In this document: one piece after another, positions 55,425 to 64,000 of the stretch
Position numbering within the stretch: position 1 is the first letter of the stretch
How the letters are laid out: each line of letters begins with the position of its first letter
Origin: Paenibacillus sp. UNC451MF
Lineage (GTDB): Bacteria; Bacillota; Bacilli; Paenibacillales; NBRC-103111
Assembly (NCBI RefSeq): GCF_000686845.1
Contig: NZ_JMLS01000005.1
Location: 101,672-165,671, forward strand
Direction: 5' to 3'
DNA: 64,000 bases
Notes under the pieces: generated by a model
The model's database searches: none
What the model saw: only the letters and a program-made list of their open reading frames with translations
Told to the model about the DNA's origin: nothing
Position numbers and translations under genes: made by a program

Positions 55425-55565
55425 ATTTAAAGTTTTTTTGAACTAACGGACAGGATAGATTCATACTTGTATTGTAATAATTTTCAAGATAGATTTGATT
55501 GAATTTATAAGACGTGTATAATTATACATGTTATAGAATATTTATTCATATCGAGGAGGGTGATT

Positions 55566-56519
55566 ATGAAATATAAAGTATTTGTTGACGGACAAGAAGG
55601 TACAACAGGCTTGAAGATCTTTGAGTATCTATCAAAACTATCAGACATAGAGGTTCTCAGGATTGACTATGATAAAAGAAAAGATCCACAAGAACGAAGC
55701 AAGTTCCTTAATGTGGCAGATATTGTTTTTCTTTGTCTTCCTGATTCGGCTGCAAAAGAGTCCATTGCTCTTGTGAAAAATGAAAAAACCAAAATCATTA
55801 ATACCAGCACTGTCTTTAGAACTGATAAAAATTGGGTATATGGTTTGCCTGAGCTAAAAAATCAAAGAGATTTAATACGTACCGCATCAAGAGTTTCTGT
55901 TCCAGGTTGTCATGCTACCGGTTTTATTCTTACCATTAGACCGTTGATCGAGGCTGGTATTCTCCAACAAGATTATCCCGTTACATGTTATTCAGTGACT
56001 GGCTATTCAGGAGCTGGAAGAAGTGGAATTGAGGAATATGAGAATTCATCATTAGTTACTGAAAAAAAACTTAATGTTCCAAGACATTATTCGTTGCAAC
56101 TCAATCATAAGCACATCCCTGAGATGTTGCTGTATTCAGGACTTTTATATGAGCCATTATTTACACCCATTAAAGCTAATTATGCGCAAGGACTAGCAAT
56201 GTCAGTTCCCTTAATGAGTAGGTATATGCCTAATAACCCTTCTGCAAAAGATGTACATGAAGTGTTATCAACGTACTTTGAAACAGAGCGTTTTGTACAT
56301 GTGATGCCGTACGATTCAGAAGCTTACCTCGACGAAGGGCACTTTATGATATCTGAATGTAATAATACGAACCGACTAGAAATATTTGTTTTTGGACAAA
56401 AAGACAAGATAAATATTATGTCGAGATACGATAATTTAGGTAAAGGGGCATCAGGTGCTGCAGTACAAAATATGAATCTTATGCTTGGATCCGATGAAGG
56501 AAATAGTTTGGTATACTAA
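55566..56519 (+). CDS. argC: N-acetyl-gamma-glutamyl-phosphate reductase, short (type 2) form
   Basis: A 317-residue NADPH enzyme of arginine synthesis. Seen: VFVDGQEGTTGLKIFEYL (nucleotide-binding start), FLCLPDSAAKESI, catalytic C115 in VPGCHATGF, SVTGYSGAGRSGIEEYE and HKHIPEM. The short length and GQEGTTG start mark the type 2 ArgC, unlike the roughly 345-residue form of typical Bacillus arginine operons. No other arg gene is near. ATG at 55566 is 7 nt from GAGGAGG. The gene is clearly AT-richer than the core genes around it, consistent with transfer. Confidence 0.88.
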   Translation: MKYKVFVDGQEGTTGLKIFEYLSKLSDIEVLRIDYDKRKDPQERSKFLNVADIVFLCLPDSAAKESIALVKNEKTKIINTSTVFRTDKNWVYGLPELKNQRDLIRTASRVSVPGCHATGFILTIRPLIEAGILQQDYPVTCYSVTGYSGAGRSGIEEYENSSLVTEKKLNVPRHYSLQLNHKHIPEMLLYSGLLYEPLFTPIKANYAQGLAMSVPLMSRYMPNNPSAKDVHEVLSTYFETERFVHVMPYDSEAYLDEGHFMISECNNTNRLEIFVFGQKDKINIMSRYDNLGKGASGAAVQNMNLMLGSDEGNSLVY

Positions 56520-57741: not shown

Positions 57742-59298
57742 ATGAACTTCGAGGGTTTTACCGTCAAAGAACTGCTGCGTTTACCTGTTCTAAAGGACGC
57801 GAAATTGATCGGCGGCGAGAAGGGGTTGGACCGCATTGTGCGGTTTGTAGATATTATGGAGGTACCCGACATTAAGGGGTGGCTGCGGGAAGGTGCGCTC
57901 ATCTTGACGACCGGCTTCTCGATACGCCATGATCCGGATTTGCTAATCGATATCGTAGAGCAGCTGGACAAAGCCAATGCTGCGGCATTAGCCATTAAAC
58001 CGGTGAGGTTCCTGGCTGAAATCCCTCAAGAAGCGATCGATAAAAGCAACCTGCTGCACATTCCCTTGATTCAACTTCCCTTAGGTATGGCTTATATTGA
58101 TATTACCTACACGGTGATGGAGCAAATTTTGGATCAGCAGGCAGTCTTGCTTCGGAAATCGGAAGAGGTATATAAAATGCTCACGAACCTGGTTCTAAAC
58201 AACAGTGGGATTCAGGTCATGGCCGACGATGTGGCGGAGCTCATCAAATGTCCGATATGGGTGATCAGCAACACGGGAGATGTTATTGTTTCCTCACCAG
58301 CAGATATCCCATACGTTGCTGATACAAATACGCGCTATTGGGATGTTACGGTGGATAAGCAGTTCGTTGGCAAACTGGTCGTGGGTAAGGAGCACCTGGA
58401 CGAGTTTGAGCAGGTTTGCGTAGAGCAGGCAAGGCTTGTCTTTTCGTTGGAATTGATGCGGAGGAAGATTGCCATGGATACGGAGGTTAGGCTGCGGGGC
58501 AGTTTTTTTGAAGAGCTCTTACTGGGATTGCCGCTTTCCAAACAGGAAGTGGAAGACAAAGGACGTCAGTTGGGATTACTCTCGGAATGGATCTGGGAGG
58601 TTGCCAGAATTGAAGGGGAGGCTTCTTATTTTGAAGAGCAATCCGCTTTCATGCTGGAATTGAACGAACTCATCAGGCGCGAATCAGAGAACCGGAGAGT
58701 CAAGGTGCGTTCTCACATACAGAAACAGGGCGATCGTTTGGTACTGCTGCTGGCTACGGGTAACGGAGGGGATCCACACAAGAAGCAGCAGGTCGGCAAT
58801 GAAGCTACCGTCAAAGAATGGTCCCGTGTGCTGACCCCGTTTTTGACAAAATGGAGTGGTATCCATACGGGGTTCGGAAGCAAGTGCTCCTTATGGGAAG
58901 CCCATCGCAGTTATATCGAAGCGAAAAAAGCGATATTCATAGGCACCAAGCTGGACCGCAATAAAACGGTATTTGCTTTCAACGAAGTGGAAATGTTTCA
59001 GCTGCTGCTGGACGCCTCTGAGTATGTACAATTCGACGCGTTGATCGAGAAAAAAATTGGAAAATTATCCCATTACGATCAAGAAAATGGAACTGATCTC
59101 GTATCCACATTGTATTATTATTTGTCGACCGGGGGCAGCCTGATGGAAACGGCGAACCAACTGTACGTCCACCGGAATTCGGTGAAATACCGGATGGACC
59201 GAATCAAGGAAATAGCTGACGCAGATTTGGACAACCCGCTCAGCCGGTTTGTATATTATTTATGTACGGCGTTTTTTTTATTAAGGAGAACGGATTGA
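57742..59298 (+). CDS. PucR-family regulator of the catabolic cluster
   Basis: A 518-residue regulator. N-terminal PucR domain (PF07905): FTVKELLRLPVLKDAKLIGG, VRFVDIMEVPDIKGWLREGA, LILTTGFSI. C-terminal HTH (PF13556): LMETANQLYVHRNSVKYRMD with LSRFVYYLCTAFFLL. Between them lies a GAF/CdaR-like region. Known: PucR-type proteins activate purine, hydantoin or amino-compound catabolism. It is followed by a strong terminator and then by the racemase/transporter genes on the same strand, which it most likely controls. ATG at 57742 is preceded by AGAGGTGAG. Confidence 0.88.
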   Translation: MNFEGFTVKELLRLPVLKDAKLIGGEKGLDRIVRFVDIMEVPDIKGWLREGALILTTGFSIRHDPDLLIDIVEQLDKANAAALAIKPVRFLAEIPQEAIDKSNLLHIPLIQLPLGMAYIDITYTVMEQILDQQAVLLRKSEEVYKMLTNLVLNNSGIQVMADDVAELIKCPIWVISNTGDVIVSSPADIPYVADTNTRYWDVTVDKQFVGKLVVGKEHLDEFEQVCVEQARLVFSLELMRRKIAMDTEVRLRGSFFEELLLGLPLSKQEVEDKGRQLGLLSEWIWEVARIEGEASYFEEQSAFMLELNELIRRESENRRVKVRSHIQKQGDRLVLLLATGNGGDPHKKQQVGNEATVKEWSRVLTPFLTKWSGIHTGFGSKCSLWEAHRSYIEAKKAIFIGTKLDRNKTVFAFNEVEMFQLLLDASEYVQFDALIEKKIGKLSHYDQENGTDLVSTLYYYLSTGGSLMETANQLYVHRNSVKYRMDRIKEIADADLDNPLSRFVYYLCTAFFLLRRTD

Positions 59299-59302
59299 AT
59301 AG

Positions 59303-59337
59303 GACCTATTGTGCTGAAAGCACAATAGGTCTTCTTT
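59303..59337 (+). terminator. Intrinsic terminator of the PucR gene
   Basis: GACCTATTGTGC / GCACAATAGGTC, a 12-bp perfect stem with TGAAA loop, followed by TTCTTT. Confidence 0.88.
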
Positions 59338-59442
59338 AGTTTTGGCGGGCCAGTACATTGTTGAATTTTTCGTGAACCTTTAAAATTTATTTATATATTC
59401 AGTCTATTAAGAAAAATATAAGTTTGAAAGGGGATGAAGGTA

Positions 59443-60090
59443 ATGATTGGACTAATTCGTGTGTTAACGACAGATGATGAGCAGGTGCTGCAAGAACATG
59501 GACGTTTAATAACGGAAAAGTATGGAGTTCCTGTAGTAAGCAAATGCATTCCGGATCAACCGCTCGGTATTTACAATGATGAAACCGAGGAAATGGCAAA
59601 TCCGAAAATTGTCGCATTAGGAAAAAGCTTGGAACAAGAAGGCTGTAAAGTGATTGTCATCAGCTGCGCGGCCGATCCTGCGATTGAACTGCTGCGCAAC
59701 AATGTATCCGTTCCTGTCATTGGTGGTGGTAGCGCGGCTTCCTATTTTGCCAGAACGATTGGAAAACCAGTGGGAGTTATGGGAATTACGGAAACGCTTC
59801 CACCCGTCATGAAGAACATTTTGGGCGATTCTTTCATCGAGTATACACAGCCTAAGGGTGTAAAGAACACGACTGATCTCATGACGCCGGCTGGGCGAGA
59901 AAAAGCGATTTTGGCAGCGAAATCATTAATGGAAAAAGGGATTGAAGTGATTGTTTTCGCGTGTACCGGATTTTCCACTATCGGCCTTGCCGACGTGTTA
60001 AGAAAAGAGCTGAACATTCCGGTCATCGATGCGGTGGAAGCCGAAGGGTTGTTTGCCTCTAACCTTTATAAACAGCTCACCGGAGTGTAA
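59443..60090 (+). CDS. Asp/Glu/hydantoin racemase family protein
   Basis: A 215-residue protein of the aspartate/glutamate racemase superfamily. Two catalytic-type cysteines are visible: ISCAADPAIELL (first half) and FACTGFSTIGLADVL (second half), each in the expected Cys-(T/A) setting; NVSVPVIGGGSAASYFARTI and NIPVIDAVEAEG are typical phosphate or carboxylate loops. Members racemise amino acids or hydantoins. Start at the ATG (59443) 9 nt after AAAGGGG; an ATG at 59434 touches that site. It overlaps nothing and is followed 4 bp later by the exporter gene. Confidence 0.85.
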   Translation: MIGLIRVLTTDDEQVLQEHGRLITEKYGVPVVSKCIPDQPLGIYNDETEEMANPKIVALGKSLEQEGCKVIVISCAADPAIELLRNNVSVPVIGGGSAASYFARTIGKPVGVMGITETLPPVMKNILGDSFIEYTQPKGVKNTTDLMTPAGREKAILAAKSLMEKGIEVIVFACTGFSTIGLADVLRKELNIPVIDAVEAEGLFASNLYKQLTGV

Positions 60091-60094
60091 GCGG

Positions 60095-61012
60095 TTGTCT
60101 ACTTCTGAAGGTTCATTGCCCAAATCGTACGCGCTTCTGTTGGTTTCAGTGTTTTTATGGGCGCTCAACTACATTTCCAGACAGATTCTATTACAAGAAT
60201 TTTCTCCTTTTTTTCTTTCAGCGCTTAGCCTCACTGTCGTTTCCTGTGTATTTTTAGCTGGTGCTTTCTTAACCAAATCGTTTGTCTCCATTACACGAAA
60301 AGAATTGCTGTTGTTGCTGCTGTCGGCAACGATAGGATTGATCGCCAACCAAATCTTTTTGTATAAAGGGCTGCAGCAGACGACGGCAACGAATGCATCT
60401 CTGATCTTTACCTTATCACCGTTGATGACCGCGGGGCTTGCCGCTGTTTTTCTGAAAGAGAGAGTCACCTGGCGGATGATTATAGGGTGCCTGATCGCCA
60501 TCTTAGGTCTGTTTCAAGCGCTGAATATGTCGGGATTTCATATGCAAATCGGCGATTGGATGATACTGGGTGCGACGTTCACCTTTTCGTGCAATCTGAT
60601 ATTTGTCCGTATTCTATCGAAGCGTCTCTCGCCATTTATGGTTACAACGTACAGCTTTGCTGTCAGTTGCATTTTTTATGATCCGTTCGTTCTTTTATTT
60701 ACCAAGCCGGAATGGAATCATTCCCTATCCATATGGACATTGGCTATTGTATCTATCCTTGTTGCACAAGGGCTGACCAATGTGATGTGGAACAAGGGGA
60801 TGAAAACGGTCGGGGCCGCCAAAGCCGCGATCGTACTCAATTTGCAGCCGATGATGACGATGCTGCTAGAATTCATCCTGCTAGGTCATATCGTTACTGC
60901 CAAGCAAATCTTCGGCGTAGCTCTTGTGTTTGTAGGCGTTCTTCTCGGAACCATGCAGCGCAGCTTCTTTAAGCGGAAACGGCCAGCGGACATCAAGCAC
61001 AACCTGAATTAG
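60095..61012 (+). CDS. EamA/DMT-family transporter
   Basis: A 305-residue membrane protein with ten predicted helices in two EamA repeats: SVFLWALNYISRQILLQEFS, TNASLIFTLSPLMTAGLAAV with FLKERVTWRMIIGCLIAILG, and later GAAKAAIVLNLQPMMTMLLE. DMT transporters export metabolites or amino acids. TTG at 60095 is used as start because CGGAGTG lies 8 nt upstream and the racemase ends 4 bp before; longer in-frame starts lie inside the racemase gene. Probably removes an amino-acid-like product. Confidence 0.82.
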   Translation: MSTSEGSLPKSYALLLVSVFLWALNYISRQILLQEFSPFFLSALSLTVVSCVFLAGAFLTKSFVSITRKELLLLLLSATIGLIANQIFLYKGLQQTTATNASLIFTLSPLMTAGLAAVFLKERVTWRMIIGCLIAILGLFQALNMSGFHMQIGDWMILGATFTFSCNLIFVRILSKRLSPFMVTTYSFAVSCIFYDPFVLLFTKPEWNHSLSIWTLAIVSILVAQGLTNVMWNKGMKTVGAAKAAIVLNLQPMMTMLLEFILLGHIVTAKQIFGVALVFVGVLLGTMQRSFFKRKRPADIKHNLN

Positions 61013-61064
61013 AAACAATGCTATCCATTACATCATAGCTCAATGACAAAATCGGGGGTTAATC

Positions 61065-62666
61065 ATGGAAGAAAAAGAAAAGAAACATCCGAGCATATTT
61101 GAACCATTTGCTCTGATTCTGAATATCGTCACAGCGGTGCTCGGTGCCATCATTGGGATGCAAATCGTGACCACACTAGGGGTAACCCCGAGCACTGCCA
61201 TTATCGGAGCACTTGTAGCCATGCTGATTGCCCGTATCCCGGTTGCGATTTTTAAGAAATACAAATCCATCCATCGTCAAAACCTTGTCCAAACGTCTAT
61301 CTCTTCGGCTACCTTTGGGGCAGCCAACAGCTTGTTGATTCCGATCGGTATTCCGTTTGCAATGGGAACGCCCGAGTTAATTGTACCGATGCTGATCGGT
61401 GCAGCGCTTGCGATGTTTGTCGATGCGGCGATTTTGTACAAAATATTCGACTCCAAGCTGTTCCCTGCTTCCGGCACTTGGGCGCCGGGTGTAGCTACCG
61501 CTGAATCGATTTTGGCCGGAGACAAAGGCGGAAAAAGAGCCGGATTGCTTGGCGCCGGTACACTGATCGGTTTGATCGGTTCCTACTTCCATATTTCGAT
61601 GTCTGCCTTTGGCGTTGCGTTTATCGGTAACATTTGGGCATTGACCATGTTCGGTATCGGTCTGATGATCCGGCAGTATTCCATACCGTGGTTCAATATC
61701 GACGTAAACCAACTGTACATTGCGCACGGCGTTATGATCGGTGCCGGAATCGTCGCATTGATACAAGTTGCGATTTTAATTTTCAGTAAGCATAAGAATG
61801 ATCAGAAAGCGAATGCAAACGAACCCGCGGCTTCCGACGAAAAGCTGACCCGTCCGATCAAGGAAGCGAAGCGTGCGCTAGGCTTTGGTTTTGTCGCTTA
61901 TCTTATCATTGCCCTGATCATCGCCCTACTTGGCGGGCTCATTACACACATGTCCTTGGGGATGCTGATTGGATTTTTGTTTTTTGCCGCATTTGCTGCC
62001 TTCGTTCATGAATTGATCGTTGGGATCGCGGCGATGCACTCCGGCTGGTTCCCTGCTTTTGCCGTGGCGTTTATCACGCTTCTCTTTGGAATGTTGATCG
62101 GCTTCCCGCCAGTGGCGCTTGCAATGCTAGCAGGCTTCAGTGCAGCTACGGGTCCAGCCTTTGCAGATATGGGCTACGACCTGAAAACCGGGCACATTCT
62201 GCGTGGTAACGGTGAAGATCGGGAGATGGAGCTGCAGGGCAGAAAGCAGCAGTATATTACTGGGATGATTGCCTTTGGCGTTGCTTTGATCACAGTTGTC
62301 TTTTCCTATAAAGGATACTTCGCGCAAAATCTCGTACCGCCGATTGACAAAGTGTATGTCTCGACGATTCAAGCGGGTGCTTCTCCGGAAATTATGCTGC
62401 AGTTGTTCCTGTGGGCAATCCCGGGTGCGATTTTGCAGTTGGTCGGAGGTCCGAGCCGTCAAATCGGGGTATTGTTCGCTACAGGTCTTTTGATCTTGAC
62501 ACCAAACGCTTGTTGGGCGGTGTTAGCGGGTATTGCTATTCGATTGATCGTATTGAAGATTTGGAAAAAAGAAGCAGAAACACCGATGACCATCATGGCC
62601 GCTGGTTTCATTGCGGGCGATGCGTTGTACAGCTTCTTTAACTCCATATTTAAATTCAGAAAGTGA
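61065..62666 (+). CDS. OPT/YSL-family transporter
   Basis: A 533-residue polytopic membrane protein with about 14 hydrophobic segments. Seen: FEPFALILNIVTAVLGAIIG, NLVQTSISSATFGAANSLLI, FPASGTWAPGVATAESILAG, and GFPPVALAMLAGFSAATGPA with FADMGYDLKTGHILRG. This is a bacterial branch of the OPT/YSL family, which imports oligopeptides or peptide-like metal chelates with protons. GGGG site before the ATG. Placed between the exporter and the DUF917 gene, it is the likely importer of the compound degraded by this cluster. Confidence 0.85.
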   Translation: MEEKEKKHPSIFEPFALILNIVTAVLGAIIGMQIVTTLGVTPSTAIIGALVAMLIARIPVAIFKKYKSIHRQNLVQTSISSATFGAANSLLIPIGIPFAMGTPELIVPMLIGAALAMFVDAAILYKIFDSKLFPASGTWAPGVATAESILAGDKGGKRAGLLGAGTLIGLIGSYFHISMSAFGVAFIGNIWALTMFGIGLMIRQYSIPWFNIDVNQLYIAHGVMIGAGIVALIQVAILIFSKHKNDQKANANEPAASDEKLTRPIKEAKRALGFGFVAYLIIALIIALLGGLITHMSLGMLIGFLFFAAFAAFVHELIVGIAAMHSGWFPAFAVAFITLLFGMLIGFPPVALAMLAGFSAATGPAFADMGYDLKTGHILRGNGEDREMELQGRKQQYITGMIAFGVALITVVFSYKGYFAQNLVPPIDKVYVSTIQAGASPEIMLQLFLWAIPGAILQLVGGPSRQIGVLFATGLLILTPNACWAVLAGIAIRLIVLKIWKKEAETPMTIMAAGFIAGDALYSFFNSIFKFRK

Positions 62667-62676
62667 GGCGTATGAC

Positions 62677-63735
62677 ATGCCAAAAATAAAATTGGATGAA
62701 AAAATGATAGAATATGCAGTCTACGGAGGAGCCGTTCTGGGTGGCGGCGGCGGCGGCTGGATCGAGGAAGGGCTGAAAATCGGGCGCTTGGCGCTCGAGG
62801 TTGGACAGCCTGAAATGCTCACCATCGACGAATTTGAAGACGACGATTTGCTCGTTACCGTATCGATGGTCGGCGCACCGGCTGCCAAGGACCAGTTTGT
62901 AAAGCCAATTCATTATGCTAAAGCATTAGAAATGTTGTCGCAAAAAATCGGAAAGCCGATTAAAGGGCTCAACACGAATGAAAACGGAGCCGGAACGACC
63001 GTCAATGGCTGGTTCCAATCGGCTGTTACCGGAATTCCGCTTGTCGATTTTGCTTGTAACGGACGTGCCCACCCGACGGGAGCCATGGGTTCGCTCAATT
63101 TGTCCGAGCTGGACGGCTACGTGTCCCACCAATCTGCTGTTGGCGGTAAAGACGCGAACTATGTCGAGCTGAGCATTTCTGGCACGCTAGAGAAAGCTGC
63201 TTCGATGATTCGCAAAGTTTCCGTTGAAGCGGGTGGACTAGTAGCTGTAGCAAGAAATCCGGTTACGGTAGCCTATGCCAAGCAGCATGGTGCGGCAGGC
63301 GCCATTTCGCAGGCAATCGAAGTCGGTCGGGCTTTGCTCTCCTATAAAGGGGAAGCGGCTATTGAATCGGTCGTCGCCAGCCTTGGGGGGAAACTGATTA
63401 CCGCGGGTACGGTAACGGACTTCCAGCTCGAAACAACAGGTGGATTCGACGTGGGTACCGTACAAATTGACGGAGCGTACGAAATGACGTTCTGGAATGA
63501 ATATATGACCTTGGAAAAGGATGGGGAGCGATTCGGCACTTTCCCTGATCTCATCATGACGTTGGATGCCAAGACGGCAAAACCAATCGTGACTGCAGCC
63601 GTTGAAAAAGGGCAGCAGCTTGCCGTCATCGCGGTTCCGAAGGAAAAATTGCTCTTGAGCAGCACGATGAGAAACGAAAAGCTGTTAAAACCAGTGGAAG
63701 ACATTATTAAAAAGTCCATTATTGCTTATTTATAA
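62677..63735 (+). CDS. DUF917-family protein (S-methyl-thiohydantoin desulfurase-like domain)
   Basis: A 352-residue protein of the DUF917 family (PF06032). Seen: GGAVLGGGGGGWIEEGLK at the N-terminus, TVSMVGAPAAKDQFV, GLNTNENGAGTTVNGW and DFACNGRAHPTGAMGSLNL. The family is linked to hydantoin or thiohydantoin catabolism and to hydantoinase/ATPase folds, but most members are untested. GTGAGGCG precedes the ATG at 62677, 10 bp after the OPT gene, so they are co-transcribed. The start seen matches the family better than upstream codons inside the OPT gene. Confidence 0.85.
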   Translation: MPKIKLDEKMIEYAVYGGAVLGGGGGGWIEEGLKIGRLALEVGQPEMLTIDEFEDDDLLVTVSMVGAPAAKDQFVKPIHYAKALEMLSQKIGKPIKGLNTNENGAGTTVNGWFQSAVTGIPLVDFACNGRAHPTGAMGSLNLSELDGYVSHQSAVGGKDANYVELSISGTLEKAASMIRKVSVEAGGLVAVARNPVTVAYAKQHGAAGAISQAIEVGRALLSYKGEAAIESVVASLGGKLITAGTVTDFQLETTGGFDVGTVQIDGAYEMTFWNEYMTLEKDGERFGTFPDLIMTLDAKTAKPIVTAAVEKGQQLAVIAVPKEKLLLSSTMRNEKLLKPVEDIIKKSIIAYL

Positions 63736-63828
63736 CATCAGAATTTATACATTTTCAGCGGAATGAACCATTCTTTCTTTTAAACACGTACTGTACAAAT
63801 TTTATAGAGAAGATAGGAGTGTAAGATT

Positions 63829-64000
63829 ATGGCATTGAAACAAACCCTTATCACATTTGATGTAATGGATGATGGATTCGTAAACGGGGAGAAAGTCAAA
63901 GCACTGTTCAGCGGGTATCCTAATGTTGCGGTGACCGTTAACAAAGTTACTGGGCAAAAAGGCAGCACGGATTTTATTAAAATCGTCATTCCAGGGACGA
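63829..64000 (+). CDS. DUF1177-family protein (partial, cut by window end)
   Basis: The first 57 codons, ATG at 63829 preceded by TAGGAGTG. MALKQTLITFDVMDDGFVNG followed by VTVNKVTGQKGSTDF and IKIVIPG matches the N-terminus of DUF1177 proteins (PF06675). These occur next to OPT transporters, DUF917 and racemase genes in several bacteria. Function is unknown. The rest of the gene lies beyond the window. Confidence 0.75.
   Translation, partial: MALKQTLITFDVMDDGFVNGEKVKALFSGYPNVAVTVNKVTGQKGSTDFIKIVIPGT

Follow-up and report, generated by a model that had tools for sequence, protein, structure and literature searches.

Cyclodipeptide oxidase (CDO) acts on cyclic dipeptides, and in a survey published in 2024 the genes encoding PF01177 racemases, DUF917 proteins, AroM, OPT and EamA transporters and peptidases were enriched around CDO genes (PMC11055893). 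In Bacillus and Paenibacillus strains, the breakdown of diketopiperazines proceeds by ring opening followed by the action of a dipeptidase, and the ring-opening enzymes were unidentified as of 2013 (PMC3852281). One strain that degrades diketopiperazines is Paenibacillus chibensis DSM 329. Here we analysed a locus of Paenibacillus sp. UNC451MF (genome of 7.49 Mb in 73 contigs) that contains a DUF1177 gene and lies at the end of a 64,000-nucleotide stretch (the window), from which the sequence was read on into the rest of the genome contig. Positions are given in window numbering, and those preceded by L003 equal the window coordinate minus 56328. The racemase, DUF917, AroM, OPT, EamA and peptidase genes of the locus are shared with the CDO clusters described in that survey as not associated with a cyclodipeptide synthase, and the nitroreductase-like CDOA and its partner CDOB (PF19585) were each found near the cluster in 11 of the 80 relatives studied here. 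However, the survey was anchored on CDO and its accessible part does not mention DUF1177, whereas most of the clusters found in this work, that of the window included, have no CDO. Judging from that part of the source, the cluster is one that had been partly noticed before, left unexplained, and that now has a defined core.

We propose that this nine-gene locus scavenges a small amide resembling a peptide, with a cyclic dipeptide (diketopiperazine) as the most likely candidate, and we give this proposal about an even chance of being correct. Cyclic dipeptides occur abundantly as signals, as antibiotics and as by-products in food, and the literature found identified no enzymes that open their ring. 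The literature search also returned nothing on the function of DUF1177 (the sole mention was unrelated), the AroM family, aroM/yaiA/aroL or thiohydantoin desulfurase, and nothing of this kind under ergothioneine/thiourocanate. The DUF1177-AroM core, the fold of DUF1177 and the interpretation of the Escherichia coli aroM gene as a decayed relic appear to be new; they give DUF1177 a predicted fold and a context, and E. coli aroM an evolutionary explanation.

DUF1177 and AroM form the core of the cluster

The DUF1177 gene (63829..64776, + strand; L003:7501-8448) encodes a protein of 315 amino acids (PF06675, 465 bits). The window end cuts it after 172 bases and it is complete on the genome contig, where the AroM gene (64814-65485, beyond the window; PF07302, 246 bits) follows 37 bp downstream. 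A scan of approximately 85,000 species genomes with the DUF1177 profile gave 576 confirmed relatives, of which the best 80 were kept with flanks of 10 kb and their genes counted by tblastn. This sample consists of the closest relatives, whose loci are not mutually independent. AroM was present in 79 of them and was the gene directly after DUF1177 in 77. In addition, among 151 genomes of the order to which the window belongs, the 30 with DUF1177 over the cut-off were the same 30 with AroM, while the other 121 had neither over the cut-off. In those 30 genomes both genes were always on one contig and one strand, with their matches separated by 22-496 bp. The invariant core of the cluster is therefore the DUF1177-AroM pair.

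The sequence-only reading of the window had proposed a survey of DUF917-DUF1177 pairs. The neighbourhood proved to be conserved as expected from it, but the strict partner of DUF1177 is AroM. DUF917 was found in 43 of the 80 relatives, being missing from the remaining 37, and in the order of the window it occurred in 28 genomes that overlapped only partly with the 30 mentioned above. It follows that DUF1177 and AroM are the true pair and DUF917 a frequent guest. Conservation limited to single genes, which that reading had named as evidence against its pathway, is excluded by the position of AroM in the relatives and by its co-occurrence with DUF1177 across the order. The pairing has exceptions: of two control genomes, that of Sulfolobus acidocaldarius encodes DUF1177 but no AroM, and that of E. 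coli encodes AroM but no DUF1177. In L101, where the DNA is GC-rich, an apparent DUF1177-AroM fusion was actually an overlapping open frame.

A second copy of the cluster, on another contig of the same genome (L004:5405-10158), consists of OPT, DUF917, DUF1177 and M29 genes whose proteins are 77-82% identical to those of the first. It has neither AroM nor a racemase of its own, and the genome contains a single AroM. This copy adjoins a selD-like gene and a gene similar to those of rhodanese-type tRNA selenotransferases, both named by eye from the sequence.

The two core proteins and the aroM gene of E. coli

DUF1177 proteins are 62-83% identical across the phylum. Comparison with solved structures by sequence, with either single sequences or profiles, did not find any resembling structure, and two weak profile matches to RNase P component 1 (E 0.04-0.2) were taken as chance. 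The sequence-only reading had stated that DUF1177 has no known role; this can now be sharpened to a core gene, paired with an AroM located outside the window, whose product has a predicted metallopeptidase fold. For the structural search, a homologue with 90% identity was modelled with AlphaFold2 (mean pLDDT 82.7, pTM 0.88). Foldseek assigned this model to the M28/M42/M20 zinc peptidase fold (E 1e-8), and its Z scores were 17.3 with LapA, 16.9 with TET and 16.4 with the Vibrio aminopeptidase over 226-237 residues (root-mean-square deviation 3.2-3.5). An M28/M42/M20 metallopeptidase fold is accordingly predicted by the model.

Residue conservation in DUF1177 was obtained from 167 rows, partly redundant, in which D90, D92, H123, C125, H133, E152, D164, H226 and H261 (163/167) were invariant or nearly so. 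By position, D90, D164 and H261 could correspond to ligands of the canonical HxD ... D ... EE ... D ... H metal site; the profile alignment was not significant. Other candidate ligands are the invariant D92, H133, E152 and H226 and the near-invariant H123 and C125. Altogether these residues could suffice for a modified metal site, with no single one assigned with certainty, because the hhalign comparison with M42 was not significant.

The AroM model (pLDDT 94) has the fold of the racemase superfamily, with a Z score of 16.8 to 2eq5 and to Asp/Glu racemases. Although AroM shares with the Asp/Glu/hydantoin racemase superfamily this fold and the two cysteines, it constitutes a separate family, and its E. 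coli member lacks one of the cysteines. C98 and C189 were found in 86/86 of the AroM proteins paired with DUF1177, and R14 in 85/85. By contrast, C98 was always replaced by Ser and R14 by Val or Met in the six AroMs examined without DUF1177, which come from E. coli and from five other members of its order that have the gene at this locus. This loss provides independent evidence, at the level of sequence, that AroM chemistry would depend on DUF1177.

The aroM gene of E. coli was named for its co-transcription with aroL; we know of no function for it, nor of a substrate for the AroM family. In E. coli K-12 the gene (NC_000913.3, 407428-408105; L155:4429-5106) lies in the order proC-yaiI-aroL-yaiA-aroM-ppnP-rdgC-mak, and it was compared with loci L079, L080, L088, L095, L102, L103, L107 and L114. 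Pantoea, Erwinia and Hafnia have at the same locus the order aroL-yaiA-IclR-OPT-DUF1177-AroM-ppnP-rdgC-mak. Phylogenetic analysis placed E. coli AroM inside the clade of that locus, with a clade support of 100/100, its exact place within the clade being uncertain due to its long branch. The best reading of these data is that E. coli aroM is probably a relic of the module, from which the importer and DUF1177 were lost and whose AroM then decayed or changed its role. It is less likely that the other genes were inserted next to an aroM already in place, since AroM accompanies DUF1177 in the other lineages sampled.

Accessory genes and the nature of the substrate

Sequences and models show the identities of the genes, the operon layout, the coupling of DUF1177 with AroM, the exchange of importers, the two folds, the conserved cysteines and M29 ligands and the relic pattern of aroM. 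The catabolic direction, the class of substrate, the order of the steps and the assignment of enzymes to them are what we infer, as in the following picture. The compound would be taken up by OPT or, in other lineages, by a dipeptide-type ABC importer. DUF1177 and AroM, as the obligatory core, would carry out ring opening and epimerisation. The resulting linear dipeptide would be split by the M29-like aminopeptidase, elsewhere by PepE or M20, while the PF01177 racemase would handle the wrong enantiomer. EamA could expel surplus amino acid, and DUF917, together with the CDO pair in some relatives, may widen the range to modified rings.

A peptide-like compound is suggested by the exchange between OPT and dipeptide-type ABC importers, by the recurrence of peptidases and by the presence of CDO in eleven relatives. 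The simplest answer common to these three hints would be a dipeptide, either cyclic or linear and unusual. OPT was found in 53/80 relatives and the dipeptide-type ABC permease in 22/80, so that 75/80 loci have one importer and none has both; the two therefore seem to replace each other. A peptidase gene (M29, PepE or M20) lies within about 8 kb in 65/80 loci. In the tblastn counts the M29-like gene was present in 54 relatives, M20 in nine and PepE in seven; PepE belongs to clusters of Enterobacterales and Acetobacteraceae and scores above its curated equivalog cut-off. The racemase was counted in 45 relatives, the NfsA-like nitroreductase in 11, HyuA in five, and the regulators PucR and IclR in 47 and 15, respectively. 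The EamA exporter of the earlier reading is real but optional, appearing in 11/80 relatives; in six loci an EamA gene sits at another place, between AroM and M29. These results agree with the view of that reading that a conserved, undescribed cluster, with racemase- and hydrolase-type enzymes, would import and break down a peptide-like compound.

The M29-like protein keeps all the ligands E, E, H, H and D of M29 aminopeptidases: E182, E246, H272, H290 and D292 are invariant, and E182 and H272 align to E250 and H345 of 2ayi. These five residues are metal ligands in M29 enzymes. Its length of only 317 amino acids separates it both from these aminopeptidases and from NicX (2,5-dihydroxypyridine dioxygenase), which gave its top profile score. 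A NicX-type ring dioxygenase was nevertheless set aside for this gene, because E182 and E246 are conserved here and differ in NicX, where the position of E246 is taken by another residue.

Several observations weigh against the proposal of cyclic dipeptide scavenging. DUF1177 resembles M28/M42/M20 metallopeptidases such as the Vibrio aminopeptidase and TET in its predicted fold, but their classic HxD and EE ligand motifs are not visible in it, RLGG... and THICPD... appearing instead. No significant similarity to them exists at sequence level, hhalign against M42 being non-significant even in permissive modes, and the likely active-site loops are the low-confidence parts of the model. Nine loci contain only IclR-OPT-DUF1177-AroM in a neighbourhood free of peptidases. 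Neither a PF19585 match in the genome of the window nor a CDO-like frame at its locus was found. Finally, HyuA, allantoin/cytosine-type permeases and nitrilases occur in few relatives, where they would fit hydantoins too.

The breakdown of hydantoin, allantoin or thiohydantoin is the alternative that these last genes favour. DUF917 would hydrolyse a five-membered ring at C2, the racemases would be hydantoin racemases and the product would be an N-carbamoyl amino acid. HyuA was, as indicated, present in 5/80 relatives, and 2/80 had the allantoin/cytosine-type permease and nitrilase; DUF917 and S-Me-THD are related; and the closest solved relative of the PF01177 racemase, whose C78 and C177 are invariant in the family, is 2eq5 (E 8.8e-85), called a hydantoin racemase. 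Furthermore, where CDO clusters carry these genes, the authors of PMC11055893 preferred substrates related to hydantoin or allantoin. However, the label of 2eq5, "hypothetical hydantoin racemase", is a name only and not a tested function, and the importers are OPT or of the dipeptide ABC type, with recurring peptidases. The DUF917 protein shares with thiohydantoin/S-methyl thiohydantoin desulfurase two Pfam domains that span almost its whole length, PF06032 (70.5 bits) and PF20906 (109.9 bits, both with a cut-off of 27), but it scored 293.4 and 248.7 bits against the curated NCBIfam equivalog cut-offs of 440 (NF058529) and 450 (NF058532), below both. It belongs to a divergent subfamily of about 60-80 Pfam bits, compared with about 200 for the other type. 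The hydantoin chemistry suggested by the sequence-only reading is weakened, because DUF917 is optional and under the desulfurase cut-offs, and we regard it as unlikely.

Linear unusual dipeptides, with a D-residue or an isoaspartyl or gamma linkage, are a comparably improbable substrate. DUF1177 would then be their dipeptidase and the racemases would return D- to L-amino acids, which is consistent with the two genes of the racemase superfamily, the several peptidases, the Dpp-type importers, the predicted fold of DUF1177 and the occurrence of PepE, itself a dipeptidase. But this alternative leaves DUF917 and the CDO pair of some clusters unexplained, and DUF1177 lacks canonical peptidase ligands. 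A metal-peptide chelate (YSL/nicotianamine-like), imported through OPT and followed by ligand breakdown, agrees with the OPT/YSL family of the importer and had also been contemplated as cargo, but it is very improbable because dipeptide-type ABC importers take the place of OPT, and neither a regulator of metal response nor a gene for metal handling was found to recur among the neighbours. Equally remote is the possibility that the cluster makes or tailors a small peptide metabolite: CDOs are biosynthetic elsewhere (PMC11055893) and an exporter gene is present, yet no cyclodipeptide synthase or non-ribosomal peptide synthetase gene was identified among the recurring neighbours annotated, dedicated importers are found in 75/80 loci, and peptidases are present.

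Returning to cyclic dipeptides, a more specific and rather doubtful form of the proposal is that DUF1177 and AroM are an unrecognised, widely transferred pair that opens them, E. coli aroM being its decayed remnant after loss of the importer and DUF1177 from the aroL-rdgC locus. A core of two enzymes, compact and mobile and served by its own importer, lends itself to direct testing.

Gene layout, spread and neighbouring genes

The six genes described by the sequence-only reading are present, all on the + strand and with the gaps of 4, 52, 10 and 93 bp after the regulator that it had given, although the cluster is longer. The arrangement of the genes is far beyond chance. The first encodes a PucR-type regulator of 518 amino acids (57742..59298) with a PucR ligand domain (PF07905, 118 bits), a GGDEF-like domain and a C-terminal HTH_30 (PF13556, 63 bits). 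Directly 3' of it on the + strand is an intrinsic-terminator-like hairpin (59301..59333) with a 15-pair stem and a T-rich tail, whose 13-nucleotide arms (59303-59331) are 100% complementary. The racemase gene (59434..60090; 218 amino acids; PF01177, 89 bits) is followed, 4 bp past its stop, by the TTG start of the EamA gene (60095..61012; PF00892, 151 bits). Then come, after 52 bp, the OPT gene (61065..62666; 533 amino acids; PF03169, 117 bits) and, after 10 bp, that of DUF917 (62677..63735; 352 amino acids); 93 bp separate the latter from DUF1177. Beyond AroM are the M29-like gene (65500-66453; PF02073, 45 bits), 14 bp downstream, and, 7 bp further, the NfsA-like nitroreductase gene (66461-67327), which has at its 3' side a terminator-like 12-bp hairpin with a T run (about 67385-67415); all of them lie outside the window. 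From the two hairpins with T-rich tails, the nine genes are read as PucR, a separate unit, and an eight-gene operon from the racemase to the nitroreductase.

In loci from across the phylum (DUF1177 identity of 54-66% for most) the same genes were found in shuffled order. The gene set was also present in Clostridia, Enterobacterales, Acetobacteraceae and haloarchaea, plasmids included. One haloarchaeal plasmid encodes an ABC importer, DUF917, DUF1177, AroM, an aminopeptidase and a racemase, and further sets were found on a Sodalis plasmid and a Paenibacillus plasmid. The conjugative plasmid pRHB26-C08_2 of Klebsiella pneumoniae (L151) carries IclR-OPT-DUF1177-AroM-PepE-racemase flanked by transposase genes. 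This module was sought in complete E. coli genomes and none had it. The set enclosed by transposase genes and the similar ones of Sodalis and haloarchaea indicate that the module is self-contained, and the distribution of these sequences supports horizontal movement of the conserved gene set.

The cluster is preceded (55560-56519) by a lipoprotein-like gene and by an argC of the TIGR01851 type (389 bits, cut-off 230) that stands alone; neither was seen to be conserved with the cluster. At the other side, eleven relatives (L053:12683-14377, L060:12655-14347 and nine more loci) have a cluster that ends with an NfsA-like nitroreductase gene and, after it, CDOA and CDOB genes that overlap. Where those relatives carry CDOA/CDOB, the genome of the window has, just past the window, a gene for an Mrr-type restriction endonuclease. 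This gene begins a stretch (L003:11499-17238) in which it is followed by genes encoding an AAA-ATPase-like protein of 520 amino acids and a 574-amino-acid protein with a likely membrane segment, as judged by eye; this group of genes might be a defence island.

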